DNA from: Candidatus Muproteobacteria bacterium RBG_16_65_34
Lineage (GTDB): Bacteria > Pseudomonadota > Gammaproteobacteria > Acidiferrobacterales > Sulfurifustaceae
Direction of reading: 5' to 3'
NCBI GenBank assembly: GCA_001785115.1
Contig: MFSU01000049.1
Location: forward strand, 812-36,801
Length of the DNA stretch: 35,990 bases
Shown here: one piece after another, positions 2,376 through 26,487 of the stretch
How the letters are laid out: each line of letters opens with the position of its first letter
How positions within the stretch are numbered: position 1 is the first letter of the stretch
Position numbers and translations under genes: made by a program
Notes under the pieces: model-generated
Told to the model about the DNA's origin: nothing
Seen by the model: only the letters and a program-made list of their open reading frames with translations
Databases searched by the model: none

Positions 2376-3326
2376 ATGACCCTCACTGAGCTTCGCTATA
2401 TCGTGGCGGTCGCGCGCGAGCGCCATTTCGGGCGCGCCGCCAAGGCCTGCTTCGTGAGCCAGCCGACGCTCTCGGCCGCGGTGAAGAAACTCGAGGAGGA
2501 GCTCGGGGCCGCGCTTTTCGAGCGCACACCGGGCAGGCTGCGCGTCACGGCCGTGGGCCAGCGCGTCGTCGAGCAGGCCCAGCGCGTGCTCGAGCAGGCC
2601 GCCGCGATCAAGGAGCTCGCCCGCGCCGGGCACGATGAGCTCGCCGGGCCGCTCAAGGTCGGCTTCCTCTCCACCGTGGGACCGTACCTGCTGCCCGATC
2701 TGATCCCGGTCCTGCGCCGCCGCGCCCCGAAGATGCCGCTCGTGGTCGAGGAGCACATGACGGAGACGCTGCGTGCGCGGCTCAAGGAAGGCACGCTCGA
2801 TGCGGTGGTGGCGTCGGCGCCCTTTGTCGAACCGGGCATCGTCACGTTGGCGTTATACGAGGAACCCTTCGCCCTGGTGCTGCCGGCGGGACACGCGCTC
2901 GCGCGCAAAGCGCGCCTCACCGTGGACGAACTGCGGCGCGAGAACCTGCTGCTGCTCGGCCCCGGGCATTGTTTCCGCGATCAGGTCTTGAGCGTCTGCC
3001 CGGTCTGCGAATCGCCCGCGGACGATGAGCACAGCATCCAGCGCACGCTCGAGGGCAGCTCGCTCGAAACCATCCGCCACATGGTCGCCTCCGGCGTCGG
3101 GATCACGCTCCTGCCCTGCACCGCGGTGGCGAGCCCGCGCCACGAGCGCCGGCTGCTCACCGCACGCCGGTTCCCCGGCGCCCAGCCGACCCGGCGCATC
3201 GCGCTCGCCTGGCGCGCGAGCTTCCCGCGCCCCAAGGCGATCGCGGCGCTGCGCGCGGCGATCCTCGACTGCCCCCTGAAGTGCGTGCGCCGACTGCACC
3301 GCGCGGCGGCCGACGCGGCGGCCTGA
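2376..3326 (+). CDS. oxyR: LysR-family peroxide sensor OxyR (first paralogue)
   Basis: A 316-residue LysR-type regulator. Residues 1-60 are the winged helix-turn-helix (FVSQPTLSAAVKKLEEELGAALFER), and residues about 90-300 are the substrate-binding fold. The OxyR redox cysteines fall at the E. coli positions, C199 and C208, in GHCFRDQVLSVC. An extra cysteine at 211 creates a CPVC motif not seen in the second OxyR of this window. OxyR forms a C199-C208 disulfide on peroxide exposure and activates defence genes. The next operon (tolC-type channel, adaptor, RND pump) has a 37-bp OxyR-like site directly in front of it, so this protein may control an efflux system. No clear ribosome site precedes the ATG; an alternative start is possible but would shorten the DNA-binding domain. 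Confidence 0.9.
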   Translation: MTLTELRYIVAVARERHFGRAAKACFVSQPTLSAAVKKLEEELGAALFERTPGRLRVTAVGQRVVEQAQRVLEQAAAIKELARAGHDELAGPLKVGFLSTVGPYLLPDLIPVLRRRAPKMPLVVEEHMTETLRARLKEGTLDAVVASAPFVEPGIVTLALYEEPFALVLPAGHALARKARLTVDELRRENLLLLGPGHCFRDQVLSVCPVCESPADDEHSIQRTLEGSSLETIRHMVASGVGITLLPCTAVASPRHERRLLTARRFPGAQPTRRIALAWRASFPRPKAIAALRAAILDCPLKCVRRLHRAAADAAA

Positions 3327-3342: not shown

Positions 3343-3379
3343 ATCGGTAATTTCTATCGGGCAGATCGGCAAAAACGAT
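3343..3379 (+). promoter_or_regulatory. Candidate OxyR operator upstream of the RND efflux operon
   Basis: Four 4-base elements with exact 7-base spacing: ATCG (3343), CTAT (3354), ATCG (3365), CGAT (3376). The OxyR consensus is ATAG-N7-CTAT-N7-ATAG-N7-CTAT, so 13 of 16 defined positions match. The site abuts the candidate -35 at 3380, the geometry typical of OxyR-activated promoters. It lies between oxyR (first copy) and the tolC-type gene. Confidence 0.6.
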
Positions 3380-3408
3380 TTGCTCAATCGCGCATCCGTC
3401 CCTATTGT
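3380..3408 (+). promoter_or_regulatory. Candidate sigma-70 promoter for the efflux operon
   Basis: TTGCTC at 3380-3385 and TATTGT at 3403-3408 are separated by 17 bases. Each matches the consensus hexamer at four of six positions. Weak hexamers are consistent with an activator-dependent promoter, and the candidate OxyR site ends at 3379, immediately upstream. Predicted transcription would start near 3415, leaving about 46 bases of leader before the ATG at 3461. Confidence 0.45.
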
Positions 3409-3460: not shown

Positions 3461-4810
3461 ATGCGAACAAAAACCGTGCTGCACGGCGCGCTGCTCCTCG
3501 CCGGGATCGCGGCCGTGCCCGCGTGGGCGGAGTCGCTCACCCTCGACCAGGCGATCGCCTATGCCCTCGGCCATAACCCCGAGCTGCGCGCCGTGCGCGA
3601 GCGCGCGGCCGCGACCGGGGCGCGGCGCGCGGCGGCCGAAGGCGCGCAATGGCCCCAGCTCGGCGCTTCCTACGGCGTGCGCCGCAGCGACAGCCCGCTC
3701 GACGCCTTCGCCGACAAGCTCAACACCCGGCGCGTCGCCGCGCCGGACTTCGATCCCGCGCGCCTGAACCATCCCGAGGCGAGCGACCTCTACATGGGGC
3801 AGCTCGCGCTGCGTTATCCCGTCTACACCGGCGGGCGGGTCTCCGCGACCATCGAAGCCGCGCGCGGCATGGAGCGAACCGCAGAGCTGCAATACGCGCG
3901 CGCGCGGGAGATCGCCGCGTTTCAAACCCTGCGCGCCTACTTGGGCGCGCACGCGGCGCAGGAAGGACTGGCCATCGCCGAGGACGCGCTGCGCGCGGCC
4001 GAGGAGCATGCGCGCACCACCGCCGGTCTCGTGCGCGAGGGTCGGATCGTGATGTCCGACAAGCTCACGGCGGAGGTCAACCTCGCGGCGGTGCAGTCCC
4101 AGAAGGAGCAGGCGGCGGCGCGGCGGCTGCGGGCCTTCGATCAACTGAAGCGCGCCATGGGCCTGACGCTCGAGCGCGAGGTCGAGATCGCGCCGGCGGC
4201 GCCCGCGCCGGCGGCGCCGCTTCGGCCGCGCGCCGAGATCGAGGCGGCGGCGCTCGTAAACCGCAGGGACCTGGCGGGCCAGCGCAGCGCGCAGGCGGCG
4301 GCGCGTTCGCGCATCAAGGCCGCGCGCGCGGCACACCTCCCGCAGTTCAGCGTAATCGCGGCCGAAAGCTGGTTCAGCGGCGATCCCGCGCTCGATAACC
4401 GCTCGACCAGCGTGATGGGCGTGCTTTCGATCGAGCTGTACGCCGGCGGCGCCCACCAGGCGGAGGTCGCCGCGGCCGCGGCCGAGGCCGAGGAGACCGA
4501 CTGGCGCCTCGATGGGCTCGATCAGCAGGTGCGCGACGAGGTGCGCGAGGCCTACGAGAGCCTGCGCGAGGCGCAGGCGCGACACGCGATCGCCGGCGCG
4601 AACGTCGGGCGCGCACGCGAGGCGGTGCAGCTCGTCAAGCAGCGCTACGGCCAGGGCCGCACGATCCTGATCGATCTGCTTCAGGCCGAACGCGCGCTCG
4701 TCGAGGCGCGCGCCGAGGAGCTCGCCACGCGCCTCGGCATCGAGATCGGGTCGGCGGCGCTCGGGCTCGCGCAGGGCGCGCTGGAGTTACCCGCGGGAGA
4801 GACGCCGTGA
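3461..4810 (+). CDS. TolC-family outer-membrane efflux channel
   Basis: A 449-residue outer-membrane factor. Residues 1-23 are a signal peptide (hydrophobic core LLLAGIAAVP, cleavage after AWA). Two OEP repeats follow, each mainly long alpha-helix with beta-strand segments: LTLDQAIAYALGHNPEL opens the first, and the second begins around the RPRAEIEAAAL stretch. The open frame extends upstream to 3281, but ATG 3461 is preferred because it gives the signal peptide and has GGAGGG about ten bases upstream. The protein should form the trimeric channel that carries pump substrates across the outer membrane. It overlaps the adaptor gene by four bases (GTGA), so the two are translationally coupled. 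Confidence 0.9.
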   Translation: MRTKTVLHGALLLAGIAAVPAWAESLTLDQAIAYALGHNPELRAVRERAAATGARRAAAEGAQWPQLGASYGVRRSDSPLDAFADKLNTRRVAAPDFDPARLNHPEASDLYMGQLALRYPVYTGGRVSATIEAARGMERTAELQYARAREIAAFQTLRAYLGAHAAQEGLAIAEDALRAAEEHARTTAGLVREGRIVMSDKLTAEVNLAAVQSQKEQAAARRLRAFDQLKRAMGLTLEREVEIAPAAPAPAAPLRPRAEIEAAALVNRRDLAGQRSAQAAARSRIKAARAAHLPQFSVIAAESWFSGDPALDNRSTSVMGVLSIELYAGGAHQAEVAAAAAEAEETDWRLDGLDQQVRDEVREAYESLREAQARHAIAGANVGRAREAVQLVKQRYGQGRTILIDLLQAERALVEARAEELATRLGIEIGSAALGLAQGALELPAGETP

Positions 4811-5178
4811 AGCGGTGGCTGACTTGGGCCGGCGTCGGCCTGCTCGTCGCGGGTTGCGGTCGTGAACCCGCGCCCGAGGCCGCCGGCGCCCCGCTCGCCC
4901 GTCCGGTCATCGCGCTCGCGGTCAAGCCCGGGGCGGCGCAGACGATCCTTATTCCGCGCGCCGCGCTCGCCGAGCGCGGCGGCATCCCCGGGGTGTTCGT
5001 GCTGAGCGAGACCAGCGAGGCGCGGTTTCGCATGGTCAAGCCCGGGCGCGGGCGCGACGGCGAGATCGAGATTCTGAGCGGGCTGCACGGCACGGAGACG
5101 CTCGTGCTCGGCGACCTGCGCGAGGTGCGCGACGGCAGCCCGGTAAAAATTCTTGAAAACGCGGATAAACGCAGATGA
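4807..5178 (+). CDS. Miniature RND adaptor-like lipoprotein (apparently lacking lipoyl and hairpin domains)
   Basis: Only 123 residues, starting GTG within the stop of the channel gene. The N-terminus is a lipoprotein signal (LLVAGC, lipidated Cys17), and residues 27-44 resemble the mature start of HlyD/AcrA-type adaptors. From residue 46, ILIPRAALAERGGIPGVFVL to SGLHGTETLVLGDLREVRDG resembles the C-terminal beta-barrel/membrane-proximal end of such adaptors. The middle 200 or so residues of a normal adaptor (about 350 aa), including the lipoyl and alpha-hairpin domains, are missing. The frame is open and in phase across the apparent junction near 4940. The last eight residues and the stop are encoded by a CGCAGAT repeat. 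It could be a working mini-adaptor, an internally deleted remnant, or an assembly collapse. Confidence 0.7.
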   Translation: MKRWLTWAGVGLLVAGCGREPAPEAAGAPLARPVIALAVKPGAAQTILIPRAALAERGGIPGVFVLSETSEARFRMVKPGRGRDGEIEILSGLHGTETLVLGDLREVRDGSPVKILENADKRR

Positions 5179-5268
5179 TTTTTATTGATAGACGCAGATG
5201 TCGTGAAATGAATCGGATCAAACCGCGTTCATCTATCACATAAATCTGCGTGCATCTGCGTTCCAACA
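5155..5268. repeat. Inverted CGCAGAT-type repeat between adaptor and pump
   Basis: An imperfect inverted repeat. The left arm (AACGCGGATAAACGCAGATG, from 5158) is matched in reverse by ATCTGCGTGCATCTGCGTT ending about 5263; an AT-rich centre lies between. The left arm supplies the last codons and the TGA of the adaptor gene. The right arm occupies the place where a ribosome-binding site for the pump gene would be expected. A half copy occurs at 31831-31858. The element probably inserted into the operon rather than being part of it originally. Confidence 0.85.
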
Positions 5269-5273
5269 ATCAT

Positions 5274-8200
5274 ATGGATAAGAATAACCACAAATTGAAT
5301 CTCGCCGGCCGCATTGCGGCCTACTTCATCGACAGCAAGCTCACGCTGCTCGTCATGGCCTTTGCCTTCCTCGCCGGCGTGTTCGCCTTCCTCGTGACCC
5401 CGCGCGAGGAGAACCCCAAGATCGTGGTGCCGGCGGCGAATGTCATCGTGCAAAAACCCGGGGCGTCGCCGGCCGAAATCGAGCAGCTCATCGTGAAGCC
5501 GCTCGAGGCGATCCTTCAGGGGCTCGCCGGAGTAGAGCACACCCACGGCCTCGCCCTGCCCTCGCTCGGTGTGGTGAGCGTGCAGTTCAAGGTCGGGCAG
5601 CCCAAGGAGGAGTCGCTCGTCAAGCTCTACGACCGCATCATGAGCAACCGCGACCGCATGCCGCCGGGCACGCTGCAACCGCTCGTGAAGCCCGCGGACG
5701 TGGACGACGTGCCGATCCTCACCGTCTCGCTGTCGTGCGCCGGGCCGCAGGACTGCCGGCTGCGGCACGTGGCGAACGACGTTCTGGAACACCTGCGCCG
5801 CGTCGAGGGCACCTCGCTCGCCTACGTGCACGGCGGCCGCAGGCGTGCGATCGGTGTCGCGCTCGACCTCGAGCGCATGCGCGCCTTCAACGTGACGCTC
5901 TCCGATATCCGGCGCGTGGTCGAGGCGACCAATGTGGACATCCCCTCGGGGGCGTTCGTGGGCGGCAACCGCGTGGCCGCGGTGCAGGCGGGGGGCATGC
6001 TCAGGACCGCCTCCGACGTGGGCGATCTCGTGGTGGCGCTCGCGGCGCACCGACCGGTGTACCTGAAGCAGGTCGCCGCCGTCACCGACGGGCCCGAGGA
6101 GATCGAGCGCGCGCACCGCATCGGCTACGGGCCGGCGTATTCGGGCAGGAAGCCCGGGGGCTATGAGGCCCCGGCGGCGACCATCGCCATCGCCAAACGC
6201 GCGGGCAGCAATGCCGTCACGGTCGCCGAGGAGGTGCTGAGGGAGCTCGATCGCATCCGGCCCACGGTGATCCCGCAGGGCGTGGATGTGAACGTGACGC
6301 GCAACGACGGCGCCAAGGCCGACGACGCCGTCAACACCCTCATGGAGCACCTCGCCATCGCCGTCGCCACCGTGGTGCTGCTGCTGGTGTTCTTCCTGGG
6401 CTGGCGCGCGGCCGGCGTCGTCACCGTTACCATTCCGCTGATTCTTTTCATTACGCTTGCCGTGGGCCTGATCGCGGGCCAGAGCATCAACCGCATCACG
6501 CTGTTCGCGGTCATTCTTTCGCTCGGTCTCCTGGTGGACGATTCGATTGTCGTGATCGAGAACATCTTCCGACACTACGCCAGGAAGGGCGCGGACCGCC
6601 TGAGACACGCGGTGGCCGCGGTGAACGAGATCGGCCGGCCCACCAACCTCGCCACCTTCACCGTGATCCTCGCCTTCCTGCCGATGTTCTGGGTCACCGG
6701 CATGATGGGGCCGTACATGGCGCCGATTCCGTTCAACGTGCCGGTGGCGATGCTCACCTCGCTCGTCATCGCCTACACCGTCGCGCCCTGGGCGGCCTAT
6801 CGCTTTCTCAAAGTGCGCGGCCACGAGCACGAGGGTCTCGCGCACGAGGAGCATCGCGGGTTTCTGGAGCGGCATTACGCCCGCATCATGAATCGGCTGA
6901 TTGCCGACGCCAAGGCACGTCGCAACTTCTTTATCGGCATCGGCGTGGTGATGTTGCTCGTTTTGTCGATGCCCGCCTTCAATCTGGTGCTGTTCAAGAT
7001 GCTGCCGAAGAACAACACCAATACCTTTAACCTCACCATCGACATGCCCGAGGGCACGAGCCTCGAGGAGACCGATCGCGTGGCGCGCCTCGTGGGCGAC
7101 GTCGTGCGCGGTCACCCGCAGGTGCAGACCTATGAGACCACGGTGGGCGAATCCGGCATCATCGACTTCAACGGGCTGCTGCGCGGCGCGGGGCTCAAGC
7201 AAGGCCCGCATGTCGCCGAGATGCGCGTGAACCTGCGCGACAAGCACGACCGTCGGGCCTCTTCCGTCGACATCGTGCGGGAGCTCAGAAAACCCATCGC
7301 CGAGCTGGCCGCCGTAACCGGCGCCAACATCAAGCTCGTCGAGGACCCGGCGGGGCCGCCGGTGCGCGCCACGATCCTGGCCGAGTTGTACGGGCCGGAT
7401 TACGCAACCCTGCGCAAACTGGCGGCGGAGCTGCGCGCCGAGGTGTTCGAAAAAACCGCGGATGTGGTCGACACCGACGATTCGGTCACCGACGACTGGA
7501 CCGAATACCGCCTCACGGTGGATCGCGAACGCGCGATGCTCGCCGGCATCGCGCCGGCGCAGGTGGCCGAGACCCTGAACGCCTTCCTGGCGGGCCTCGA
7601 TGCGGGCACGGTGCACCTCGAGCTCGAGCGGGAGCCGGTGCCCATCCGCTTTCGCATCCCGGCAGCCGATCGCGCGGGTCCGGGGGATTTACGCAAAATC
7701 TTCTTCACCAATCCACAAGGTCGGCAGGTGGCGCTCACCGACATCGCGCGGGTGGAAAAACAGACCGCGCCCAAGCCGATCTTCCACAAGGACCAATACC
7801 CGGTGGTGTACGTCACGGGCGAGCTCGGGAGCACGAGCCAGGTATACGCGGTGCTCAAGATGTGGAACTACCTGCGTGCGCATGAGCTGCCCTCGGGGGT
7901 GAAGCTCACGCAGTACTTCATGGCCGACCCGGATACGACCGGCTATTCCGTGCGCTGGGACGGCGAGATGCGGCTCACGCTCGATGTGTTCCGCGACCTG
8001 GGCTCGGCCTTCGCGGTCGCGATTGTTCTGATCTATCTGACACTGGTCGGTTACTACCGCTCGTTCATGACGCCGCTCATCGTCATGGGCGCGATCCCGC
8101 TGACCGTCGTCGGCGTGCTGCCGGGCCACGCGCTCATGGGTCAGTACTTCACCGCCACCTCCATGATCGGCGTGATCGCGCTCGCCGGCATCGTCGTGCG

Positions 8201-8483
8201 CAACTCGCTGCTGCTGATCGACTTCATCCTCGAATACCGCCGCGCCGGTCACGCCCTGCGCGAGGCGGTGTTGCAGGCCGGCGTGGTGCGCCTGCGCCCG
8301 ATCCTGCTCACCGCGTTCGCCATCATTCTGGGCACCTTCGTCATGGCCTTCGACCCGGTGTTCGGCGGGCTCGCGGTCTCGCTCATCTACGGCACCTTCG
8401 CCTCCACAGTGCTGACGCTGCTCGTGATCCCGCTGGTGTACTTCATCTACGAGCAGCGGGTGCAACAGGCCGCGCACCGCTGA
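5274..8483 (+). CDS. RND-family efflux pump, inner-membrane permease
   Basis: A 1069-residue AcrB/HAE1-like RND transporter. It shows the usual duplicated plan: a single N-terminal helix (about residues 23-42), a large periplasmic loop, helices 2-6, another helix near 570 followed by a second periplasmic loop, and C-terminal helices. The tandem aspartates in GLLVDDSIVVIENIFRH are the proton-relay residues of TM4. The pump should drive export by proton antiport with the upstream channel and adaptor; the substrate cannot be read from the sequence. The frame opens at 5250, but that ATG lies inside the intergenic repeat, so ATG 5274 is preferred. No Shine-Dalgarno sequence is visible, probably because the repeat replaced it, so translation may be weak. 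Confidence 0.92.
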   Translation: MDKNNHKLNLAGRIAAYFIDSKLTLLVMAFAFLAGVFAFLVTPREENPKIVVPAANVIVQKPGASPAEIEQLIVKPLEAILQGLAGVEHTHGLALPSLGVVSVQFKVGQPKEESLVKLYDRIMSNRDRMPPGTLQPLVKPADVDDVPILTVSLSCAGPQDCRLRHVANDVLEHLRRVEGTSLAYVHGGRRRAIGVALDLERMRAFNVTLSDIRRVVEATNVDIPSGAFVGGNRVAAVQAGGMLRTASDVGDLVVALAAHRPVYLKQVAAVTDGPEEIERAHRIGYGPAYSGRKPGGYEAPAATIAIAKRAGSNAVTVAEEVLRELDRIRPTVIPQGVDVNVTRNDGAKADDAVNTLMEHLAIAVATVVLLLVFFLGWRAAGVVTVTIPLILFITLAVGLIAGQSINRITLFAVILSLGLLVDDSIVVIENIFRHYARKGADRLRHAVAAVNEIGRPTNLATFTVILAFLPMFWVTGMMGPYMAPIPFNVPVAMLTSLVIAYTVAPWAAYRFLKVRGHEHEGLAHEEHRGFLERHYARIMNRLIADAKARRNFFIGIGVVMLLVLSMPAFNLVLFKMLPKNNTNTFNLTIDMPEGTSLEETDRVARLVGDVVRGHPQVQTYETTVGESGIIDFNGLLRGAGLKQGPHVAEMRVNLRDKHDRRASSVDIVRELRKPIAELAAVTGANIKLVEDPAGPPVRATILAELYGPDYATLRKLAAELRAEVFEKTADVVDTDDSVTDDWTEYRLTVDRERAMLAGIAPAQVAETLNAFLAGLDAGTVHLELEREPVPIRFRIPAADRAGPGDLRKIFFTNPQGRQVALTDIARVEKQTAPKPIFHKDQYPVVYVTGELGSTSQVYAVLKMWNYLRAHELPSGVKLTQYFMADPDTTGYSVRWDGEMRLTLDVFRDLGSAFAVAIVLIYLTLVGYYRSFMTPLIVMGAIPLTVVGVLPGHALMGQYFTATSMIGVIALAGIVVRNSLLLIDFILEYRRAGHALREAVLQAGVVRLRPILLTAFAIILGTFVMAFDPVFGGLAVSLIYGTFASTVLTLLVIPLVYFIYEQRVQQAAHR

Positions 8484-13120: not shown

Positions 13121-15587
13121 GCGGAACGGCGCGCGCTTCAACGCGCGCGGCTTTGTCTTTGCCGGACTTCTTCATGCCCCAAAGCGACTGCTCGAGCCAC
13201 ACCTCGAGATCCTCCGGCGACAGCGGACGACTGAGAAAAAGCCCCTGAGCCAGGTCGCAACCGAGCTCCCGCAAGCGCCGGTAGACCGCCTCGCTCTCGG
13301 CTCCCTCGGCCACCACCTCGAGACCGAGGTGGTGCGCCAGCTCGACACTGGTGCGGACGATCGCCGCGTCGTTCTCGTCCTTGATCATGCCGGTGACGAA
13401 GGTCTTGTCGATCTTGATCGCGTCCACCGGAAGACGCTTCAGGTACGAAAGCGAGGAATAGCCGGTGCCGAAATCGTCGATCGTGAGCTTGAGCCCCATG
13501 GCCGACAGCCGCGCGAGCATGTCCAACGCGCGCGCGGGGTCGGTCATCACCGCGCTCTCCGTGATCTCGAGCTCCAGCCACGCTGGCTCAACCTGGTGCG
13601 CGGCCAACTGCTCGGCGATGGTGTCCGCGAGCGAAGGGTCCTGGAGATCGCACACCGACAGGTTCACCGCAACGGAGACCGGAAACCCCATCCGGCGCAG
13701 CCGCGCACTTTGCTGCATGGCCTCGTTGAGCACCCACGGCGTGAGGTTGCGGATCTGGCCGGTCTGCTCCAGCAGCGAGATGAACGCATCGGGCGGTATG
13801 ACGCCCTCGCGCGGGTGGTTCCAGCGCACCAGGGCCTCGACCCCCTCGACCCGGCCGCTCGCGAGGTTCACCTTCGGCTGATAGCAGAGCGTGAACTGCT
13901 CCTGCTCGATCGCCTGACGCAGCTCGCTCAAGAGCGCAAGCCGCGTCCCGTAGTGCTGATCCATCTTCGTATCGTAGAAGGCGAATCCGCTGTTGGCGGT
14001 CTTGGCGGCGTACATGGCGACGTCCGCGCGCTGGAGCAGGACGTTCGCCTCCACGCCGTGGTCCGGATGCAGCACAATGCCGATGCTGGCGCTGATATCG
14101 AGATGGTGCTCATGGAACACGAAGGGCGAACGCAACGTCTGCAGCAGCATGCGCGCCGCGGTCTCGGCCTGCTTGACGCTGACCGCGGACAGCAGCACGG
14201 CGAATTCATCTCCGCCCAGGCGCGCGACCATGTCGGAGTCGCGCAGCTTGTCGCGCAACCGCTCGGCCACCTGCTCGAGCAGCAGATCCCCGATGTGGTG
14301 CCCGAGGGTATCGTTGATGTCCTTGAAATGGTCGAGATCCATGATGATGAGCGCAAACGGCCGATGCTCGCGCTTGGCGGCGTGGATCGTCTGGCGCAGC
14401 CGGTCCAGGAACATGGCGCGGTTCGGCAACTGCGTGAGCGGATCGGTGAAGGCGATGTCGTCCATGTTGACACGCAACTCCCGCATGCCCGCGATCATCG
14501 CGTTGAACTCGACCACCAGCTCGGCGACCTCGGCGGTGCCGCGGACCGGCACCGGATGCACCGGCGCCTGAACGTCCCGGCGCACGCCGCGCAGCCGTTC
14601 GGCCAGTGCGCGCAACGGCTCGATGGCGGTCTTCTGCAGCGCTACAAGCGCCACGAACATGAACGCTACGGTGAGAAGTACGGCAACGAATAAAATGAAG
14701 TATCGGGCCTGCGCGAAGCCCGCGTGAACATCGCTCATGTCCTTGAGCGCGGCGATTTTGAGCGCCATCGCCCGGCCCCGCTCATGGGCGCTGAACGCGT
14801 GTTCGACGACGATGGCCTCGTCCGTCGTGTCCGGCGCGGGCCACTTGCCGAGTTGGTGCAGGACGCGCCCGCTCACCATACGCAATTCGAGCGGCAGCGC
14901 CATGCCGGCTTGCATCGCGCCCAGACGGCGCTCAACGCCCATCACAACCTGGAGATATCCCACGGGGGCCTCGCGCCCCAGTGGAATCAATACCGCGTAA
15001 TGCAGTCCGTCTTGCAGGCAGAATCCCGAGAGCGGCGCGCGGATCCCGGGCGCGACTTTTGCGGCGGGGGCGCGCCAATTCGCGCAGAGCAGCGCGGCGA
15101 GGGACAAGTCCTGCGGGCGCGAGGCGTGCGCCAGGATATTGAGCTTGGCGTCATAGGCCTGGAGCTGGGCCGGCGCGACTTCGCCGAGCAGGCGCTCGTG
15201 ATGTTGCGCGAGCACGCCCAGGCGCCGGGCGAGCGCGCGCTCGTCGCGCGCTCCCAGCGCGGCGATCAGCCCGGCATCGTTCTGCGCCGCTTCGCCCAGC
15301 CACTGCGCGCGCACCGTCAGGTCCCGGCGCAGCGCGCCGAATTCCGATCTCAGATAATCCGTCAGGACGGCGCGCTGCTGCTCGATCGCGAGATCGCGAT
15401 AGACGGCGGCGCCCGCAAACGTGAGCGCAAGGCCCAGGGCGCCGAGCGTGAGGACGGTAGCGATGAGGCTGGTGCGCATCGAGACGCGCCGGAAGAACCG
15501 CGCGAAACGCCGGCCGAGGCGGTTGCGCCGCGCCTCGGACGCGCTCTCATCGCCTGCTGTCGGATTGATTCTGGCTTCGTTGACCAC
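13110..15587 (-). CDS. Membrane-bound diguanylate cyclase/phosphodiesterase (GGDEF-EAL) with periplasmic sensor
   Basis: 825 residues from a GTG start. TM1 (about 40-62) and TM2 (about 292-316) bracket a periplasmic sensor region of about 230 residues. A HAMP-like segment (ALAERLRGVRRDVQ) follows. The GGDEF motif is intact at 458-462, with an RDSD inhibitory site exactly five residues before it. The EAL domain is also intact: EAL at 584-586, then EITES, DDFGTGYSSLSYLKRLP and EGAES. Both synthesis and hydrolysis of cyclic di-GMP are therefore plausible, with feedback control at the I-site. An internal ATG at residue 37 is an alternative start, still upstream of TM1. The sensed signal is unknown, and no partner gene lies nearby. 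Confidence 0.93.
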   Translation of the reverse strand: MVNEARINPTAGDESASEARRNRLGRRFARFFRRVSMRTSLIATVLTLGALGLALTFAGAAVYRDLAIEQQRAVLTDYLRSEFGALRRDLTVRAQWLGEAAQNDAGLIAALGARDERALARRLGVLAQHHERLLGEVAPAQLQAYDAKLNILAHASRPQDLSLAALLCANWRAPAAKVAPGIRAPLSGFCLQDGLHYAVLIPLGREAPVGYLQVVMGVERRLGAMQAGMALPLELRMVSGRVLHQLGKWPAPDTTDEAIVVEHAFSAHERGRAMALKIAALKDMSDVHAGFAQARYFILFVAVLLTVAFMFVALVALQKTAIEPLRALAERLRGVRRDVQAPVHPVPVRGTAEVAELVVEFNAMIAGMRELRVNMDDIAFTDPLTQLPNRAMFLDRLRQTIHAAKREHRPFALIIMDLDHFKDINDTLGHHIGDLLLEQVAERLRDKLRDSDMVARLGGDEFAVLLSAVSVKQAETAARMLLQTLRSPFVFHEHHLDISASIGIVLHPDHGVEANVLLQRADVAMYAAKTANSGFAFYDTKMDQHYGTRLALLSELRQAIEQEQFTLCYQPKVNLASGRVEGVEALVRWNHPREGVIPPDAFISLLEQTGQIRNLTPWVLNEAMQQSARLRRMGFPVSVAVNLSVCDLQDPSLADTIAEQLAAHQVEPAWLELEITESAVMTDPARALDMLARLSAMGLKLTIDDFGTGYSSLSYLKRLPVDAIKIDKTFVTGMIKDENDAAIVRTSVELAHHLGLEVVAEGAESEAVYRRLRELGCDLAQGLFLSRPLSPEDLEVWLEQSLWGMKKSGKDKAARVEARAVPLRR

Positions 15588-15900
15588 GTGTGGCTCTGCC
15601 TGGTGAAATTATGGGCCCGAACGACCGCCCGTCTCCCGCTGCACGCTAAGCACGCCACCCTGGCTGGGATGTCAGAAATCAGTGCAATTCCGGTGCCATC
15701 TGTTAGCCGCTTGCAATCAAGATGTTATGCAACGCTTCGGGCCGCCGGAAGCGCTGCGCGGCAGGTAACGGAAACGCGGTGTGCGGTGGCCGACGCGCGG
15801 AGCGCATTTTGGGCAGGCGGACGTGAAGATCGGGCCGCTTCTCACGATAAGCCGGGGCCACTACATTAAAGGACCGAAATTTCGGTAGGCGAATACAGAC
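15588..15900. other. Divergent intergenic region between the GGDEF-EAL gene and the fructosamine kinase
   Basis: 313 bases without a convincing gene. The most distinctive item is a 14-base perfect palindrome at 15873-15886, listed separately. The remainder is moderately GC-rich, with no RNA-like structure recognised. It should hold promoters for both divergent genes. Confidence 0.5.
15873..15886. promoter_or_regulatory. 14-bp perfect palindrome, possible operator
   Basis: ACCGAAATTTCGGT reads the same on both strands and ends 14 bases before the ATG of the fructosamine-kinase gene. A symmetric site in that position could bind a dimeric repressor. It also overlaps the zone where a ribosome site would be, and no strong Shine-Dalgarno sequence is seen there. 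Confidence 0.4.
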
Positions 15901-17547: not shown

Positions 17548-19011
17548 TCAGGCCGCTTTCACACGGTTGATATCGATTCCCAAGCCCCGCGCCACGCCTT
17601 CACCGTACGCCGGGTCCGCCTGGTAGAAGTGGTGGATCTGACGCACCTGAATCTCGCGCGGAACCGGTTTCAGTGCGTCCACAAGGTTTCCGATCAACTG
17701 GGCTTTCTGGTCGGCGTTCATCAACCGGTACAGGTTGCCCGCCTGCGTGTAGTCATCGTTGCCCGCGCGGTGATCGTAGCGGTCGGCGTCGCCGCTGATC
17801 TTGAGCGGCGGCTCCTTGTAGCGCGCGTCTTCCACCGGCCCGCCGAAGCTGTTGGGCTGGTAGTTGGGCGCGCGCCCGAAGTTGCCGTCGAAACGGGTTT
17901 GACCGTCGCGGTGATAGTGATGCACCGGGCAGCGCGGTTTGTTCACCGGCAACGCCGCGTAGTTGACGCCGATGCGGTAGCGGTGCGCGTCCGGGTAGGA
18001 CAACAGCCGCGCCTGGAGCATCTTGTCCGGCGAGGCGCCCATGCCGGGCGGCAGGTTGCCCGGCTCGAACGCCGCCTGCTCGACTTCCGCGAAATAGTTC
18101 TCCGGGTTGCGGTTGAGCTCCATCACGCCCACCTCGATCAGGGGGTAGTCCTTGTGCGGCCACACCTTGGTGAGGTCGAAGGGATTGATGGCATAGGTTT
18201 CGGCGTCCTTCTCCGGCATGATCTGCACCATCGCGCGCCATTTAGGGAACTCGCCCTTTTCGATGGCGGTGAACAGATCACGGCGGTGGTGGTCGAGGTC
18301 CTCTCCGGCGATCCGGGTCGCTTCATCCGAGGTCAGGCACTTGATGCCCTGCATGGTCTTGAAGTGCCACTTCACCCAGTAGCGTTCGCCGGCCTCGTTC
18401 CACAGACTGTAAGTGTGACTGGAGTAGCCGTTCATGTGGCGCAGCGTGGCGGGAATGCCGCGATCGGAAAACAGTGTCGTTACCTGATGCAGCGATTCCG
18501 GCGACAGGCTCCAGAAGTCCCACTGCATGGTGTTGTCGCGCATCCCGGTGCGCGGGTCGCGTTTCTGCGAATGGATAAAGTCGGAAAACTTCAGCGGGTC
18601 GCGCACGAAGAACACCGGCGTGTTGTTGCCCACCATGTCCCAGTTGCCTTCCTCGGTGTAGAACTTGACGGCGAAGCCGCGCGGATCGCGCGCCGTGTCA
18701 GCGGAGCCGAGCTCGCCCGCCACCGTCGAGAAGCGCACAAAGATTTCACAGGTTTTGCCGACCTTGGAAAAGATCTTCGCGCGGGTGTAACGCGAGATGT
18801 CGCCGGTCACCTTGAAGGTGCCGTAGGCGCCCGCGCCCTTGGCGTGCACCACCCGCTCCGGCACGCGCTCGCGGTTGAAGTGCGCCATCTTTTCCATCAG
18901 CTGGTAGTCCTGCATCAGCACCGGGCCGCGCGGGCCGGCGGTGAGGCTGTTCTGGTTGTCGCCCACCGGTACCCCGGCGGCGGTGGTCATGCGGTTGCGT
19001 TTGTCGGTCAT
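17548..19011 (-). CDS. katA: Monofunctional haem catalase (small-subunit, KatA type)
   Basis: 487 residues. The distal catalytic histidine is H56 ([15 protein letters not shown]), the asparagine lies in [14 protein letters not shown] (about 129), and the proximal haem tyrosine is in [14 protein letters not shown]. Length fits small-subunit clade 3 catalases. The enzyme dismutates hydrogen peroxide to water and oxygen. The frame extends to 19101, but ATG 19011 gives the usual [20 protein letters not shown] start and has AGGAG about nine bases upstream. It is divergent from the second oxyR, with an OxyR-like operator in between, so peroxide induction is expected. Confidence 0.96.
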
Positions 19012-19070
19012 GTCCTTGCTCCTGGATAAGTCTGGTTTTGGGAGAACCGTCGTTCCGACAGTTCGTGAGC

Positions 19071-19102
19071 GGATTCTGGTCTCCGTCCATGTATTGTTCA
19101 AA
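19071..19102 (-). promoter_or_regulatory. Candidate sigma-70 promoter of katA
   Basis: On the minus strand, TTGAAC (19102-19097) and CAGAAT are separated by 17 bases. Each hexamer matches the consensus at four of six positions. The candidate OxyR operator begins at 19106, three bases upstream of this -35, the arrangement expected for OxyR activation. Confidence 0.4.
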
Positions 19103-19154: not shown

Positions 19155-20093
19155 ATGACCTTGCAGGAATTGCGCTATCTGGTGGCCGTGGCCGAGGAGG
19201 GGCAGGTGGCGCGCGCCGCCGGGCGCTGCCACGTCGGCCAGCCGACGCTGAGCACCCAGCTCAAGAAGCTCGAGGACACCCTCGGCGTGCAGCTCTTCGA
19301 GCGCGGCCCGCGCGGGCTCACGCCGACCGCCGCCGGCGCACCGATCATCGCCCAGGCGCGCGTCGTGCTCGAGGAAACCGAGAAGCTGCGCGCGCTTGCG
19401 CGCGCCACGCAGGACCCGATGGCGGGACCGTTGCGGCTCGGGGCGATCCCGACGCTCGGGCCGTATCTCCTGCCGCATCTGCTGCCGGTGATCCGCAAGC
19501 GTTATCCGCACCTGCGGTTGCTGCTGAGCGAGCTCCTTACCGCGCAGTTGGTCGCGGCCGTGCAGGCGCACACGCTCGACTGCGCGCTGCTCGCGCTGCC
19601 GGTGGCGCACGAGGGGCTCGAGGTGGTGGAGTTGTTTCGCGAGCCGTTCGAGGTGGCGCTACCGGCCGGCCATCCGCTCGCGCGGAAAAAGCACGTGCAG
19701 CCCGGGGACCTGGCGCACGAGTGCCTGCTGCTGCTCGAAGAGGGCCACTGCCTGCGCGACCAGGCGCTCGATGTCTGCGGGGTGGCGAAGAGTGAGTCGC
19801 GCGAGGAGGTGCAGGCGACAAGCCTCGAGACGCTGCGCCAGATGGTCGCCGCCGGCATCGGCTGCACGCTACTGCCGCAGCTCGCCACCCAGGGCGGCGC
19901 GCGCCCCGACAAACGCCTCATCGAGCTGCGGCCGTTCGCACGCCCGACACCGACGCGGCTGATCGGCCTGCTGTGGCGCGCCCGCGGCGCGCGCGCTGAA
20001 GCGGCCCGGCAGCTCGGCGACCTGATCCGCGCGCACTTGCCGACGGGCGTGCTCGCCACGCGGTCGGTCGGGAGCCGCCCGCACACATCCTGA
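19155..20093 (+). CDS. oxyR: LysR-family peroxide sensor OxyR (second paralogue, paired with katA)
   Basis: 312 residues, a LysR-type regulator with the winged helix-turn-helix at 1-60 (HVGQPTLSTQLKKLEDTLGVQLFER). The redox cysteines are C199 and C208 in GHCLRDQALDVC; the third cysteine of the first paralogue is not present here. AAGGAG lies seven bases upstream of the ATG. Divergence from katA with a shared operator is the classic arrangement, so this copy is probably the main peroxide regulator. It starts with MTLQELRYLVAVAEE, close to MTLTELRYIVAVARE of the other copy; the two are clear paralogues. Confidence 0.93.
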   Translation: MTLQELRYLVAVAEEGQVARAAGRCHVGQPTLSTQLKKLEDTLGVQLFERGPRGLTPTAAGAPIIAQARVVLEETEKLRALARATQDPMAGPLRLGAIPTLGPYLLPHLLPVIRKRYPHLRLLLSELLTAQLVAAVQAHTLDCALLALPVAHEGLEVVELFREPFEVALPAGHPLARKKHVQPGDLAHECLLLLEEGHCLRDQALDVCGVAKSESREEVQATSLETLRQMVAAGIGCTLLPQLATQGGARPDKRLIELRPFARPTPTRLIGLLWRARGARAEAARQLGDLIRAHLPTGVLATRSVGSRPHTS

Positions 20094-21269: not shown

Positions 21270-22556
21270 TTATCGTTGAACCTCGTTCGATTTCCGAGCA
21301 ACGCCGGCTGGAGTATACGTCTGTTTTGGCTTGACTACTGTAAGTATTACTGTCATTGAGTGTATCCCTGGCCCACTGTATCGAGCAAACTGCGGCTTAC
21401 AGACCATTGGCTTAATCTCAGCCGAATCTATGTGGAGTGTGTGCAACACTCCGTACGCATACTTGCTCCATTCAACTCCCGCTTTCGCAATGGGATATTT
21501 CTGTTTTTCAGTTGTACTTCCGTAATAGGTTCGTCCCGCCGGATAAACTCCATAATAAGTTCGTCCTGCCGGAAAAACTTGTGCCTCGACACCATGTGAA
21601 GCCGTTTCGTTCGTGTCCAACTGTAACCCTAGAATTCCACCGGGCTCACAAAAGTTCCCAAGCATGTTTACGCTGGACACACGCACACCGACCTCACCGG
21701 TGCCCTGCCTGTCGCATTTCAATGACCACGTCTTATCCACCTCAAGTAGGCAACGCTGCGCTAGAAGCGTCTCCCCCGTTTCGACTGCACCCCGAAACCA
21801 CGATCGTTCGAGTTCCGCCTGTTCCAGCATTACCGTGTCCAGGCCCTTCGCTTTCACTAAGCTCGCAAGCTGTTCATTCAGCACTGGCCCCCCTATCTTC
21901 TCAAGAAGATCGTGCAAGGGGCCGATTCGTCTTTCGCGCATTGCCAATATATGCTTCTTGACCAACGCGGGATCCTTGTAGATGTCACCGTGCCTGTGCA
22001 TCTTTTCCCTGTTCCAACGGTATGTCGTGTAACTAAGCGTTTCCCTGTCAATGAATATCAGGCCCTTGCAGTCTCCTGCCCAGTACTCTCCGGCGCGGTG
22101 GGTCAGGACGGCAATGTATTTCGTCGTTACCTCAATCGATCGTGTTGCACAGTCGATAATCGCCGGATGGCGCAACAATCCCACCTTCAGCGTTTTGGGG
22201 TCGAAAAAACCTACTCCGCCAATGCCCTCGTGCCCCTCCCCGGAATAAAAATTCAAGCCGAACCAAATCTTGTTTTCTGCAACGGCCGTCGGTCCGATAG
22301 TCGTGTCCACTACGTAATCGAATGTTTTGTCTATATCTGTTCGATAGTGCCTGAGTACTGCATTGGTGGTGTTCGGCAAATCTATTGAGTATTTATCGTC
22401 GCCATTCTCTGCACCCGAAATTCCATACCCACCTATCTGAAATGTTTGCCCGTTGACCGTCTCTTCATCAAATGCGCCGTCCTCAGAATAGCCGATAGCA
22501 GCGCCCGAAAAAATGCTAAACCCGACAAGCGCCTTCGCTAAGAGTCTGCCCAACAT
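21270..22556 (-). CDS. Exported protein of unknown function, second gene of a two-gene unit
   Basis: 428 residues with a signal-peptide-like N-terminus (residues 5-22, LLAKALVGFSIFSGAAIG). The first half has strand-rich segments ending in phrases such as AENKIWFGLNFYSG, KYIAVLTHRAGEYWAG and KGLIFIDRETL, reminiscent of a beta-propeller. The middle (200-280) is charged and helical. Cysteines are scattered through the mature part. A 10-residue direct duplication (PAGRTYYGVY, PAGRTYYGST) occurs near residue 340. I recognise no family. Base composition is clearly lower in G+C than in neighbouring core genes, suggesting transfer. It follows the preceding gene (22560-23993) with a 3-base gap, so they are almost certainly co-expressed. 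Confidence 0.75.
   Translation of the reverse strand: MLGRLLAKALVGFSIFSGAAIGYSEDGAFDEETVNGQTFQIGGYGISGAENGDDKYSIDLPNTTNAVLRHYRTDIDKTFDYVVDTTIGPTAVAENKIWFGLNFYSGEGHEGIGGVGFFDPKTLKVGLLRHPAIIDCATRSIEVTTKYIAVLTHRAGEYWAGDCKGLIFIDRETLSYTTYRWNREKMHRHGDIYKDPALVKKHILAMRERRIGPLHDLLEKIGGPVLNEQLASLVKAKGLDTVMLEQAELERSWFRGAVETGETLLAQRCLLEVDKTWSLKCDRQGTGEVGVRVSSVNMLGNFCEPGGILGLQLDTNETASHGVEAQVFPAGRTYYGVYPAGRTYYGSTTEKQKYPIAKAGVEWSKYAYGVLHTLHIDSAEIKPMVCKPQFARYSGPGIHSMTVILTVVKPKQTYTPAGVARKSNEVQR
21520..21579. repeat. Two 30-bp tandem units inside the 428-aa protein gene
   Basis: Units 21520-21549 and 21550-21579 differ at only four or five positions and keep the reading frame, producing the 10-residue duplication PAGRTYYG(V/S). 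Recent in-frame slippage is the simplest explanation. Confidence 0.85.
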
Positions 22557-22559
22557 GGA

Positions 22560-23993
22560 TCACCGATAACCGTGCTGCAAGGGATTCTGACAAGAATCCT
22601 CCTGCAGCTCCAACTTATAAATGGCCCCGTCCACACGACGGCGGTTCTTGATGTTGACGCACAGACGGACGTTTTCGGGATTCTCCGGTTTCACGCGAAT
22701 CGGCCATATTGCTACGGCCCGGCCCTCTTTGTCTTCCACAATCTTGGGTTTCACGAAATCTATGGTGGTCCCTCCGATTCGTTTTGGCGGCGCCCATGCT
22801 CCGAGCTTGTCGTAATGGGTCGCCCACACGCTCACGCGGTTCTTGTGTGATTCGAGCCATACGACCGTACCTGAGCCCGCTCTTGCCGATGTGATCGCAG
22901 GATTGATGCTATGTCCGCCTTCGGTTGGCAGGCTTACTGGAACAGTCCATCCCTTTGGCGCATATTCGCTCAACCATATAGAGTTTCCGTATCCCTTTGG
23001 ACTAACTAACTGTGTCCACGCCGCCGTGACGGTACCAACGTCGTCTACAACGGCTGTAACACCGGAAACGTCTTCGAGCTTCGGGTCATTGATGCTGGCC
23101 ACGTTGCTCCACGAATCGGATGCTTTGTCGTAGCGCGTGGCATAGAGGTGTACACCGCCGACCCATAGCACTGTCACATTTCCGTGCTGGTCTACAACGG
23201 GTATTGGCTCGCCACCAGATCCCTTCTCCCAGAGCGGGCCCGCAGCAATCGGTTCCTGTCCCATCCAGCCTGTCCCGGGAACGTATCTCTGGGCGGTAAT
23301 AACGTAATCCTCATCACCCGCCGTTCTCCAGACCACTACGGCGTGTCCGTTATTGACCGCCGCGGCGGGATGATCGGCGTACCGATCCTGACAATCATTC
23401 TCCGTGGGTATTGGCGAGCCAAGGTGAATGAGCCTGCAACGAAGCCCCCCCTTTTCGAGCCATACGATCAGTCCGTTTCCCGTCTTGTCAATCACCGCAT
23501 CGGCGGTTTCGGGTGCGTACGGGTTTGCGTTCCCGATGCGGTATGGCTTACCCCAATCGTTGCTGGGATCGTATTCGCGCGCCCACAACTCAGAGCCACC
23601 CCGCGACTTTTCTTGATGCCAAACGACCAACGCCTGGCCGGAGTCGCCGGCCGCGACTTTGGGCGAGCTTGCGCGCTCTTCCCCGAAATAGACTTGGGAG
23701 GGGCCGATCCAACCCTGCTCAGGATCGTAGCGGCTGGCAAGAATGTGTTTTAGGGAACGTCCGTTCCTCTTCCAGACCACCAAAACCCGTCCCTTGCCGT
23801 CCATTGTCATGTCCGGTTCAAGCCATGCCGTCGGCGCGACATCGCCGTCTTGAGGGTCTAGATGTCTCGGCGTTTGCCAGTGGTGAGATGATTCCTCGCT
23901 CCAGGATGCCGCGGGCGCCGGCGACGCAATTACAAGAGTTGCACAAACCACTGCCGCGAGTGCCGCAGCGCATCGGTTCGATGCATGGCCCAT
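22560..23993 (-). CDS. Exported beta-propeller-like repeat protein of unknown function
   Basis: 477 residues. Residues 1-29 are a signal peptide (ALAAVVCATLVIASPAPAAS). The mature part contains about eight copies of a 45-60 residue unit, each with a hydrophobic VVW-type strand: RVLVVWKRN, QALVVWHQE, GLIVWLEKG, AVVVWRTAG, VTVLWVGG, VTAAWTQL, GTVVWLESH, AVAIWPIR. Most are followed by a tyrosine-containing strand such as ASRYDPEQGWIGP or ATRYDKASDSW, as in multi-bladed propellers. The open frame continues much further upstream, but that part overlaps the lipoprotein gene antisense-free in another frame and is spurious. ATG 23993 gives the signal peptide; ATG 24017 is an alternative. No ribosome site is obvious. 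It is probably secreted or surface exposed; substrate and partners are unknown. Confidence 0.75.
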   Translation of the reverse strand: MGHASNRCAAALAAVVCATLVIASPAPAASWSEESSHHWQTPRHLDPQDGDVAPTAWLEPDMTMDGKGRVLVVWKRNGRSLKHILASRYDPEQGWIGPSQVYFGEERASSPKVAAGDSGQALVVWHQEKSRGGSELWAREYDPSNDWGKPYRIGNANPYAPETADAVIDKTGNGLIVWLEKGGLRCRLIHLGSPIPTENDCQDRYADHPAAAVNNGHAVVVWRTAGDEDYVITAQRYVPGTGWMGQEPIAAGPLWEKGSGGEPIPVVDQHGNVTVLWVGGVHLYATRYDKASDSWSNVASINDPKLEDVSGVTAVVDDVGTVTAAWTQLVSPKGYGNSIWLSEYAPKGWTVPVSLPTEGGHSINPAITSARAGSGTVVWLESHKNRVSVWATHYDKLGAWAPPKRIGGTTIDFVKPKIVEDKEGRAVAIWPIRVKPENPENVRLCVNIKNRRRVDGAIYKLELQEDSCQNPLQHGYR

Positions 23994-24035
23994 GAATTGT
24001 GCATTGGGGTCACCCATTGGTCGCGGCAGTGCGCA

Positions 24036-24061
24036 CCAAGAAATCCTGTTAATCCTGTCTA
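24036..24061. repeat. AACAGGATT-type tandem repeat at the 3' end of a lipoprotein gene
   Basis: On the minus strand, ACAGGATTAACAGGATTTCT immediately follows, and shares bases with, the TAG stop of the LPP20-type gene. A related tract lies at 32388-32417, just after the stop of the aldolase/dehydrogenase gene. Two copies in the same position relative to stop codons suggest a dispersed 3'-end repeat family. Confidence 0.7.
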
Positions 24062-25081
24062 TTTCGGTTTTTCTTCCCGCCCGGTGGCGAAGCCGATTAT
24101 CGTGGCGCGCAGGTCTTTTTTCAGGACCTTGTCCGCTTCGTCCAACGCGCGGCGGCGGGCGACTGCGTGGTCGGTCGCCGAGGACTTGATGCTCCAGCGC
24201 TGGGTGCCGCGCACGCGGGCGCTCGCGGCCTCGACGAGGCGGACCTCGAGGGCGCCGCGCTGCCAGTACCAGCCCTCCTTGAGCCCGAGGTCCTCGAGCG
24301 GGAACGCCGCCTCGAGCACGTACTCCGGGCTCTGGCCGGTCTCGATCAGGAAGCCGGCGCCGGCCAGCGCCCCGCTTACGACCGACTCCAGGCCGCCGGC
24401 GTCGTCCTGCACGATGCGCGGGGCGATGCGCACGCGGCCCAGAAGCTCGGCCAAGTCGGCGCGCAGCTTGTCGCGGCTCCACGGGGCCGCGATCCCCTGG
24501 CCGGTCACGTCGACGACCTTGAGGGATTTCTGGTACGACTGGCGCTCGAGCTGGGCCTCGTAGGCGCGGCTGGCGGCGGCGATCTTGAGGAACAGATCCC
24601 CCGCCGCGCGGGCGCGCTCGAGGTCGCTGCGCGTCGCGGCATCGAGCCGGTCGATCTCCTGGCGCAGGCTCGCGGCGGTCTGAAGCCGCGGGAGCGTCGC
24701 GAGCGCATGCTGCGCGCGCGTCTTCGGGTCCTGCCACAGCTCCGCGATCTGGATGCCCTGGACGATCTGCTCGGCGCGCGTGGCGATGCGCCGGCGCGCC
24801 TGCGTGGCGTACTCGCCCGCGCCGCCTTCCTTGCCCCCGGCCTTGAACGCCTGGACGTCCTCGGTATCGACGACCACCGAGACCTCGAAGATCTTGGCGA
24901 GGTCCGCGCGCGCCCGGTCCTTGGCCTCCTCGAGGCTCGCGGCCTGGCCGCGCCCGATCAGGTATTGCGCGGCCGGGTACTGGCCGCTGGCGCCGTCCAC
25001 CCAGTCGGGCTGGCCGGGGCGGGTGGCGCAGGCGCTGAGCAACAGCAGCGCGATCAAGGCGGTTCGGCGGAAGATGTTCAT
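24059..25081 (-). CDS. LPP20-family lipoprotein, last gene of a lipoprotein operon
   Basis: 340 residues. The lipoprotein signal LIALLLLSAC places the lipidated cysteine at 18. Residues about 25-110 (PDWVDGASGQYPAAQYLIGR, then AKDRARADLAKIFEV) match the LPP20/FlgP-type fold also seen in the gene at 27111-27677. A helical middle region and a further alpha/beta domain (KEGWYWQRGALEVRLVEA) follow, so it is about 150 residues longer than the first LPP20 protein. It is probably anchored to the outer membrane. It lies 23 bases after the COG3014-type gene on the same strand. Function is unknown; a role in envelope or flagellar outer-membrane assembly is only suggested by relatives. Confidence 0.8.
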   Translation of the reverse strand: MNIFRRTALIALLLLSACATRPGQPDWVDGASGQYPAAQYLIGRGQAASLEEAKDRARADLAKIFEVSVVVDTEDVQAFKAGGKEGGAGEYATQARRRIATRAEQIVQGIQIAELWQDPKTRAQHALATLPRLQTAASLRQEIDRLDAATRSDLERARAAGDLFLKIAAASRAYEAQLERQSYQKSLKVVDVTGQGIAAPWSRDKLRADLAELLGRVRIAPRIVQDDAGGLESVVSGALAGAGFLIETGQSPEYVLEAAFPLEDLGLKEGWYWQRGALEVRLVEAASARVRGTQRWSIKSSATDHAVARRRALDEADKVLKKDLRATIIGFATGREEKPK

Positions 25082-25104
25082 GGTCGGTTCCTCGGCACGG
25101 TGAA

Positions 25105-26487
25105 CTACGGGGACACCACGTGTTGCGAGACGAAGGTCTTGTGGCCTTTGCGAATCGTAACGCGCGGGAGCGTGCGCGTTTCGATCGCCTGGCGGTGCGG
25201 CCCGAGCAGCTCCACATTAACCGTGTACTCGCCCGGCGGCAAGGGCAGGCGGACCAGCTGGATGTCATGCGGGAGCGTGAGCCAACTGCGCGTGTCGGCG
25301 CGCTCGGTGAGCAACCCGGCAACCTCGACGGTGAGGCTGAGGAGCGCCGGCGCGAGCGAGGCCTGCTGGTCGCGGTTGTCGCGACCGCCCGCCTTGCGCG
25401 CAACCTCCTGCTTGACCGCGGCGCGCGCCACCGCGCGCGCCGTGATGACGGGCATCTTGGCGTTCAGGCTCTCCACGGCCATCGCCTGCACGTCTTCGGC
25501 GGGCTCCGTCGTGGCCGCCGACCCGCCCAGGTTCAGGCGCGCGGCGGTCACGGCGGGCGCGCGGGTTTGGTAGTAAGGCAGCGACACGCGTATGAGGTGA
25601 CCGGAGTTCGGGTTGACCACGGTCACCGCGTGCTCGCGCTTGATGGGGGCCAGGCCGTTGTGGAGCAGGAATACGAGCTCACCGCCCTGCCCCAGTTCCT
25701 CGAGGCTCATCCAGCGGTCGATGGCGAATTCCTTGCGGTACTTCGCGAGCTCGTCCCTGAGTCCCTGGCGGCTCGTCAGGCGCAGCAGATCCTGCTTGAG
25801 CTGGGAGGGCGGCTCGCCGGCGTTGTTCCGGCGGTAGGTCCGGTACGCCTCGTAGGCCTTGCGGTAGGCGATGAGGGCGTCGCTCCACTCGCCCAGCTCC
25901 TCGTAGACGAGGCCGGTGAGATAGCGCGCGAAGGCATCGCCGGCGTAGCGGTTCTCCGGGAGCCGCTCGGCGATCTCGCGCAGCTTGATGTCGATCTGCA
26001 ACGCCTCGACGCGCGCCGCGTCCGGCTGTCCCTGCTCGAGATAGTTGAGCGCCTTGTACACGCGCACCAGCACCTGCTCGTATTCCTCGCCGGCGTAGCT
26101 CAACGTGGCGTCGTTGATGACGAAGGCGAGCGCGTGTTCGCTGACGCTCGCGGCGTAGAGCGCCTCCATGCGCTGCTTGGCGGCCTCGAGCGCCTGGTTG
26201 GAGGCTTCGAGGTCGCGGTTCATGCGCGTGAGCATCCCCCGGTTGAGCAGGTACAGGACCTCGTCGCGGTCCGGATGCGGCTTGCGTTCGAGCTCCTGAA
26301 GCGCGAGATCGTAGCGCTGCGCCTGGAGCTGCTGCTCGATCGGCCGGAAGGAGTCGCTGTAGGTCGCGCAGCCGGAGACGGCGAGGAGCAGCGCCCCGAG
26401 GAGCAGGCTTGGCGCGAGGCGCCGGGCGCGGCGGCGCGCGGGCGCCGCGTCGGCTCGGGCCCCGCGCACGCGGCGGGCGGCGGGCAT
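25105..26487 (-). CDS. COG3014-family lipoprotein with helical repeats
   Basis: 460 residues. A basic N-terminus precedes a lipoprotein signal (SLLLGALLLAVSGC, lipidated C40). The 40-residue leader is long, and a GTG at codon 7 (26469) is a shorter alternative start. Residues about 45-230 are TPR-like helices (YDLALQELERKPHPDRDEVL, TGLVYEELGEWSDALIAYRK). The C-terminal half is beta-rich and ends in a carrier-like domain (LPLPPGEYTVNVELLG). This family is known mainly from genomes and occurs beside LpoB-like genes. It starts six bases after the LpoB stop, so it is in the same operon. Confidence 0.8.
   Translation of the reverse strand: MPAARRVRGARADAAPARRRARRLAPSLLLGALLLAVSGCATYSDSFRPIEQQLQAQRYDLALQELERKPHPDRDEVLYLLNRGMLTRMNRDLEASNQALEAAKQRMEALYAASVSEHALAFVINDATLSYAGEEYEQVLVRVYKALNYLEQGQPDAARVEALQIDIKLREIAERLPENRYAGDAFARYLTGLVYEELGEWSDALIAYRKAYEAYRTYRRNNAGEPPSQLKQDLLRLTSRQGLRDELAKYRKEFAIDRWMSLEELGQGGELVFLLHNGLAPIKREHAVTVVNPNSGHLIRVSLPYYQTRAPAVTAARLNLGGSAATTEPAEDVQAMAVESLNAKMPVITARAVARAAVKQEVARKAGGRDNRDQQASLAPALLSLTVEVAGLLTERADTRSWLTLPHDIQLVRLPLPPGEYTVNVELLGPHRQAIETRTLPRVTIRKGHKTFVSQHVVSP

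Follow-up and report, generated by a model that had tools for sequence, protein, structure and literature searches.

Is the RND efflux operon at this locus controlled by OxyR, and if so, how did a pump become a target of this regulator? OxyR regulons are usually described as comprising peroxide scavengers together with iron and thiol repair. The first-pass annotation of the window (the whole stretch of 35,990 nucleotides analyzed here) proposed that the pump operon is under OxyR control, through a site between the pump genes and an adjacent oxyR. The following features are concerned:

2376..3326, + strand: oxyR1, encoding an OxyR of the Pseudomonas/Neisseria type (LysR family, peroxide sensor) that has the two redox cysteines (GHCFRDQVLSVC), assigned by Pfam and nearest structure
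3343..3379, + strand: predicted four-element OxyR-type operator, assigned by pattern match and conservation beside orthologous oxyR genes
3380..3385, + strand: -35 hexamer TTGCTC, directly abutting the fourth element
3403..3408, + strand: -10 hexamer TATTGT, at +23 from the fourth element and separated from the -35 by a 17-nt spacer
3461..4810, + strand: TolC-family outer-membrane channel gene, first of the predicted operon (Pfam OEP, E 3.5e-48)
4807..5178, + strand: mini-adaptor, a 123-aa lipoprotein whose start codon overlaps the tolC stop (TIGR01730 positions 250-321 of 322)
5274..8483, + strand: RND permease, 1069 aa from ATG (Pfam ACR_tran, E 4e-167)

OxyR1 has the Pfam domains HTH_1 and LysR_substrate, the helix-turn-helix and substrate domains of LysR-type regulators. 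Its nearest solved protein is Pseudomonas aeruginosa OxyR (4x6g, E 6e-98), aligned over its length, and the redox pair C199/C208 is kept in the context GHC-x8-C (GHCFRDQVLSVC in OxyR1, aligned to GHCFRDQVLEAC in P. aeruginosa OxyR). The NCBIfam OxyR model NF008361 was the best match to OxyR1, at 239.5 bits, below the equivalog cut-off of 329 bits. Orthologues (E<=1e-85) were present in 112 of the 370 sampled genomes of the class, indicating that OxyR1 represents the usual OxyR in many Gammaproteobacteria. The regulator had been described as an OxyR paralogue; it belongs to the widespread Pseudomonas type and is not an odd paralogue.

The segment at 3343-3408 reads ATCG-N7-CTAT-N7-ATCG-N7-CGAT-TTGCTC-N17-TATTGT. 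Its four elements (ATCG 3343-3346, CTAT 3354-3357, ATCG 3365-3368, and CGAT 3376-3379) lie 7 nt apart and match the consensus ATAG/CTAT/ATAG/CTAT at 3+4+3+3 = 13 of 16 positions, all in register. The operator starts 16 nt past the oxyR stop codon, inside the 134-bp gap between oxyR and tolC, and abuts the -35 of the downstream gene; 52 nt separate the end of the -10 from the tolC ATG (3461). The elements, 7-base spacing, 13/16 score, both hexamers, and 17-base spacer had all been annotated exactly to the base, and the coordinates place the promoter between oxyR and the channel gene, as claimed. In the window, the region upstream of oxyR1 was searched for an autoregulation operator and contained no good site (best, 9/16). 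A repeat-like inverted sequence (CACCGCGGAGA...CTCTGCGGTGAACA) lies at 2240-2330, also upstream of oxyR1.

Among known systems, the closest solved OxyR is that of P. aeruginosa, with sites at phnW, ahpC, and katB (PMC5720770). The phnW site, which was DNase I-footprinted with OxyR, is ATCG-N7-TTAT-N7-ATCG-N7-CAAT (12/16) and shares the window's ATCG at elements 1 and 3. Of the consensus matches of 9-13/16 that were tested in P. aeruginosa, most were not regulated by OxyR, a warning against trusting the match alone (PMC5720770). In the window's own whole genome, only two places had three or fewer mismatches to the consensus, and a reversed control pattern gave an equal number, so this search was dropped as proof. 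The consensus match alone, genome-wide, is at chance level, and the argument is therefore carried by the position behind oxyR and by conservation.

We compared the footprint across orthologous oxyR loci, in which sites were picked by consensus only; the -10 spacing played no part in the choice. Twelve of the 13 order-level orthologues had a four-element site matching 12-14 of 16 positions beside oxyR. Nine of these sites were behind oxyR, at 9 nt in G008 (the genome FW104_bin.7), at 10-36 nt in six loci, and ~300 nt past the stop in two; the other three lay in the gap separating oxyR from a divergently oriented peroxiredoxin gene. In the thirteenth orthologous locus (L009), whose 5' flank was masked, the sequence behind oxyR contained no site. 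The genes next to the sites behind oxyR encode catalase (L008, L089, L091), KatG (L090), or rubrerythrin (L088, L092, L093, L094), and in G008 a YgaP-like gene and tolC stand behind the site. In 10 of the 12 sites, a TAnnnT hexamer begins precisely 23 nt past element 4, with 0 or 1 occurrence at any other offset. This offset corresponds to the 6 nt of the -35 plus a 17-nt spacer, the same as in the window.

At class level, a site of at least 12/16 was found beside oxyR in 16 of 27 loci (13 behind the gene and 3 upstream of oxyR only). Of the 13 sites behind oxyR, 12 share the -10 offset and 12 precede rubrerythrin; in none of the 27 loci is oxyR adjacent to a TolC or RND gene. Gammaproteobacteria commonly conserve a pair in which oxyR precedes an OxyR-type promoter and a rubrerythrin gene (L088, L105, L108, L110, L112, L114, L118, L120, L121, L126, L127, L130). 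The oxyR-rubrerythrin and oxyR-catalase pairs resemble the window in the type of oxyR, the operator behind it, and the -10 at +23; whereas these pairs drive a peroxide enzyme, the unit in the window would drive an RND pump operon.

The window and G008, with 78% OxyR identity, have both kept the site, its spacing, and the oxyR-pump linkage. Although elements 1 and 3 differ between the two, both retain the CTAT and CGAT elements, the spacing, and the -10, which suggests selection. The four elements and the promoter spacing thus recur beside orthologous oxyR genes, G008 included, as the proposed conservation check called for, and OxyR control of the RND operon is supported at the level of sequence comparison.

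In nearer relatives, the gene order is hemW-hemJ-tolC-adaptor-RND-ydjM-priA, without oxyR; oxyR stands between hemJ and tolC only in the window and G008 (L037/L007). Because the same join occurs in two genomes, an assembly error is unlikely. Pump loci without this oxyR had no site of at least 12/16 before tolC, suggesting that OxyR control is lineage-specific and that an oxyR-plus-promoter unit was apparently inserted upstream of an existing pump operon, which appears to be the simplest history. The G008 locus has a rhodanese gene and a YgaP-like gene in addition, the latter between the site and tolC. These two genes flank oxyR, resemble the two halves of YgaP, and each adjoin an OxyR-like site (13/16). 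In a Centralia MAG (locus L048), a YgaP-like gene precedes tolC, yet neither oxyR nor the site is present.

The best explanation as a whole for the observed site, spacing, conservation, change of synteny, and cysteine pair is, with high probability, that OxyR1 controls the pump operon via a captured promoter. OxyR1 (2376-3326) would bind the four-element operator (3343-3379); upon oxidation of its cysteine pair, it would contact RNA polymerase at the abutting -35, and activation of the promoter (3380-3408) would turn on tolC, the mini-adaptor gene, and the RND gene (3461-8483). In this reading, OxyR binding, peroxide activation, and a single transcript for the three pump genes are predicted, and exposure to oxidants probably leads to production of the pump. 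The suggestion that the pump exports oxidant-damaged compounds gained no support here. In other Gammaproteobacteria, the same operator and promoter unit behind oxyR would drive rubrerythrin, catalase, or KatG; in the common ancestor of the window and G008, oxyR and the promoter would have come between hemJ and the existing pump operon, capturing the pump. OxyR control is also favored by the rarity of a 13/16 match in Markov sequence and by the rank of the site under a profile from orthologous loci (both given below). Counting against it are the chance-level consensus count genome-wide, the unregulated matches in P. aeruginosa, the weakness of the window operator within its set, the unremarkable score of the operator alone under a reduced profile, the occurrence of the oxyR-pump linkage in two genomes only, and a repeat-like hairpin between the adaptor and permease genes. 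A literature search of partial coverage for an RND operon under direct OxyR control found nothing direct. In contrast to the pump predicted as a target in the window, no efflux target appears in the P. aeruginosa paper ('efflux' and 'mex' are absent from the text of PMC5720770). If the pump is oxidant-induced, the locus would provide a direct connection between oxidative stress and efflux among environmental bacteria. It also offers a testable model of regulon evolution, in which an oxidant sensor brings a new target under its operator by relocating together with it.

OxyR might also control the operon in response to a different inducer, a possibility raised by another gene of the window:

30189-31478: flavocytochrome c sulfide dehydrogenase flavoprotein

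This gene suggests that the source, an uncultured and probably sulfur-oxidizing organism, oxidizes sulfide. Sulfane sulfur (persulfide or polysulfide) would then be the inducer, and the pump would serve reactive-sulfur management in a sulfide oxidizer. Sulfane sulfur is sensed by E. coli OxyR (PMC6831875), which together with the sulfide dehydrogenase makes it a real alternative inducer, and the rhodanese and YgaP-like membrane protein neighbor oxyR in G008. However, the orthologous sites mostly serve peroxide enzymes, and the window locus has neither the rhodanese nor the YgaP-like gene. We consider this alternative unlikely, and peroxide the better candidate.

It is less probable still that the site is a relic of a chance insertion of oxyR and its promoter, with OxyR having little effect on the pump or its control decaying. 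The oxyR-pump linkage is rare, and the window operator is weaker than those of its relatives, being among the weakest of its orthologous set, with ATCG instead of ATAG as elements 1 and 3. We scored the site with a 66-bp profile of site plus promoter, built from orthologous loci only. Position 3343 ranked first in the window, and nothing as good occurred in 10 Mb of null sequence. When G008 and the divergent sites were left out of the profile, 3343 scored lower and was all but tied at the top of the window ranking, and null sequence gave 3 equally good matches per 10 Mb; the 37-bp operator alone, scored with the same reduced set, was unremarkable (164 as good per 10 Mb). Against a relic, the spacing, CTAT, CGAT, and -10 retained between the window and G008 at 78% OxyR identity suggest selection.

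We give an equally small probability to the site being bound mainly by another LysR-type protein or by a second OxyR encoded in the window, with OxyR1 not being the regulator:

19155-20093: OxyR2, second OxyR, 48% identical to OxyR1, with the cysteine pair kept, beside catalase

The two OxyR proteins both have the cysteine pair and resemble each other over the whole length, and LysR proteins in general accept T-N11-A motifs. By contrast, the site accompanies oxyR1 in many genomes, and OxyR2 has a different site of its own in the gap between oxyR2 and the divergent catalase gene (17548-19101), both of which favor OxyR1. The OxyR-like site in that gap ends in CAAT, and the 66-bp profile placed it second in the window. 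Elsewhere in the window, the regions 13329-15869 and 21270-25403 contain several long open reading frames with no Pfam match.

That the resemblance is due to chance and the operon is constitutive is hardly credible, since the position, promoter spacing, and conservation of the site speak against it even though genome-wide consensus matches equal the reversed control count. In first-order Markov sequence of the window's composition, matches of at least 13/16 occurred at 2 per 10 Mb, or ~2e-5 per 134-bp gap. With the promoter built into the pattern, the window site was the sole match in its own genome; the wobble positions had been widened to fit the window, and this match was therefore not counted as independent evidence.

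The pump itself is unusual. The permease is full-length, has MdtB as its nearest solved protein, and contains the VDD proton-relay motif (LLVDDSI). Its TM10 motif, GIVVRNS, has Arg in place of Lys, as in 38 of 38 relatives with a readable motif; the TM10 Lys is essential in AcrB-type pumps. The mini-adaptor consists of a lipoprotein signal plus what corresponds to the final quarter of an RND adaptor, that is, the C-terminal membrane-proximal domain only. Of the four domains of an RND adaptor (membrane-proximal, beta-barrel, lipoyl, and hairpin), the window protein and its 36 aligned relatives (37-sequence alignment A1; L035-L075) hold just this one. The relatives are 103-134 aa long, most with a lipobox. 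The predicted structure of the mini-adaptor (pLDDT 88.5) matched only the membrane-proximal domain of TMexC, MexA, TriA, AcrA, and BesA. A pseudogene produced by frameshift or deletion was ruled out, because the adaptor is equally short, mostly with a lipoprotein signal, in ~37 operons. The predicted one-domain adaptor is conserved in ~37 operons of Gammaproteobacteria MAGs, a more surprising finding than the OxyR control; the reviews searched, with partial coverage of the literature, yielded no description of an adaptor of this kind.

Compared with pumps of the MdtB/TriABC type, the window permease is nearest MdtB by sequence, and the adaptor is nearest TriA among solved structures. Unlike these pumps, it has a membrane-proximal-only adaptor, its own TolC gene, and the Arg for Lys in TM10. 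The RND pump BesABC of Borrelia burgdorferi also has an adaptor without an alpha-hairpin (PMC3807786), but BesA keeps the lipoyl and beta-barrel domains, both of which are missing from the mini-adaptor. If this one-domain class is real, the TolC channel would have to meet the permease without adaptor hairpins, and its conservation questions which adaptor domains such a pump really needs. We propose only tentatively, and with some doubt, that the oxyR-plus-operator unit swapped its peroxide-enzyme target for a pump of an undescribed one-domain mini-adaptor RND class. What appears to be new here is a pump as the target of a well-known regulator, gained by promoter capture and equipped with a reduced adaptor.

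Between the adaptor and permease genes, an imperfect inverted repeat at 5160-5260 folds at -38 kcal/mol, and short related copies occur at eight other places in the genome; this hairpin may affect permease expression. Short open frames resembling the mini-adaptor are also present in a few other members of the class.
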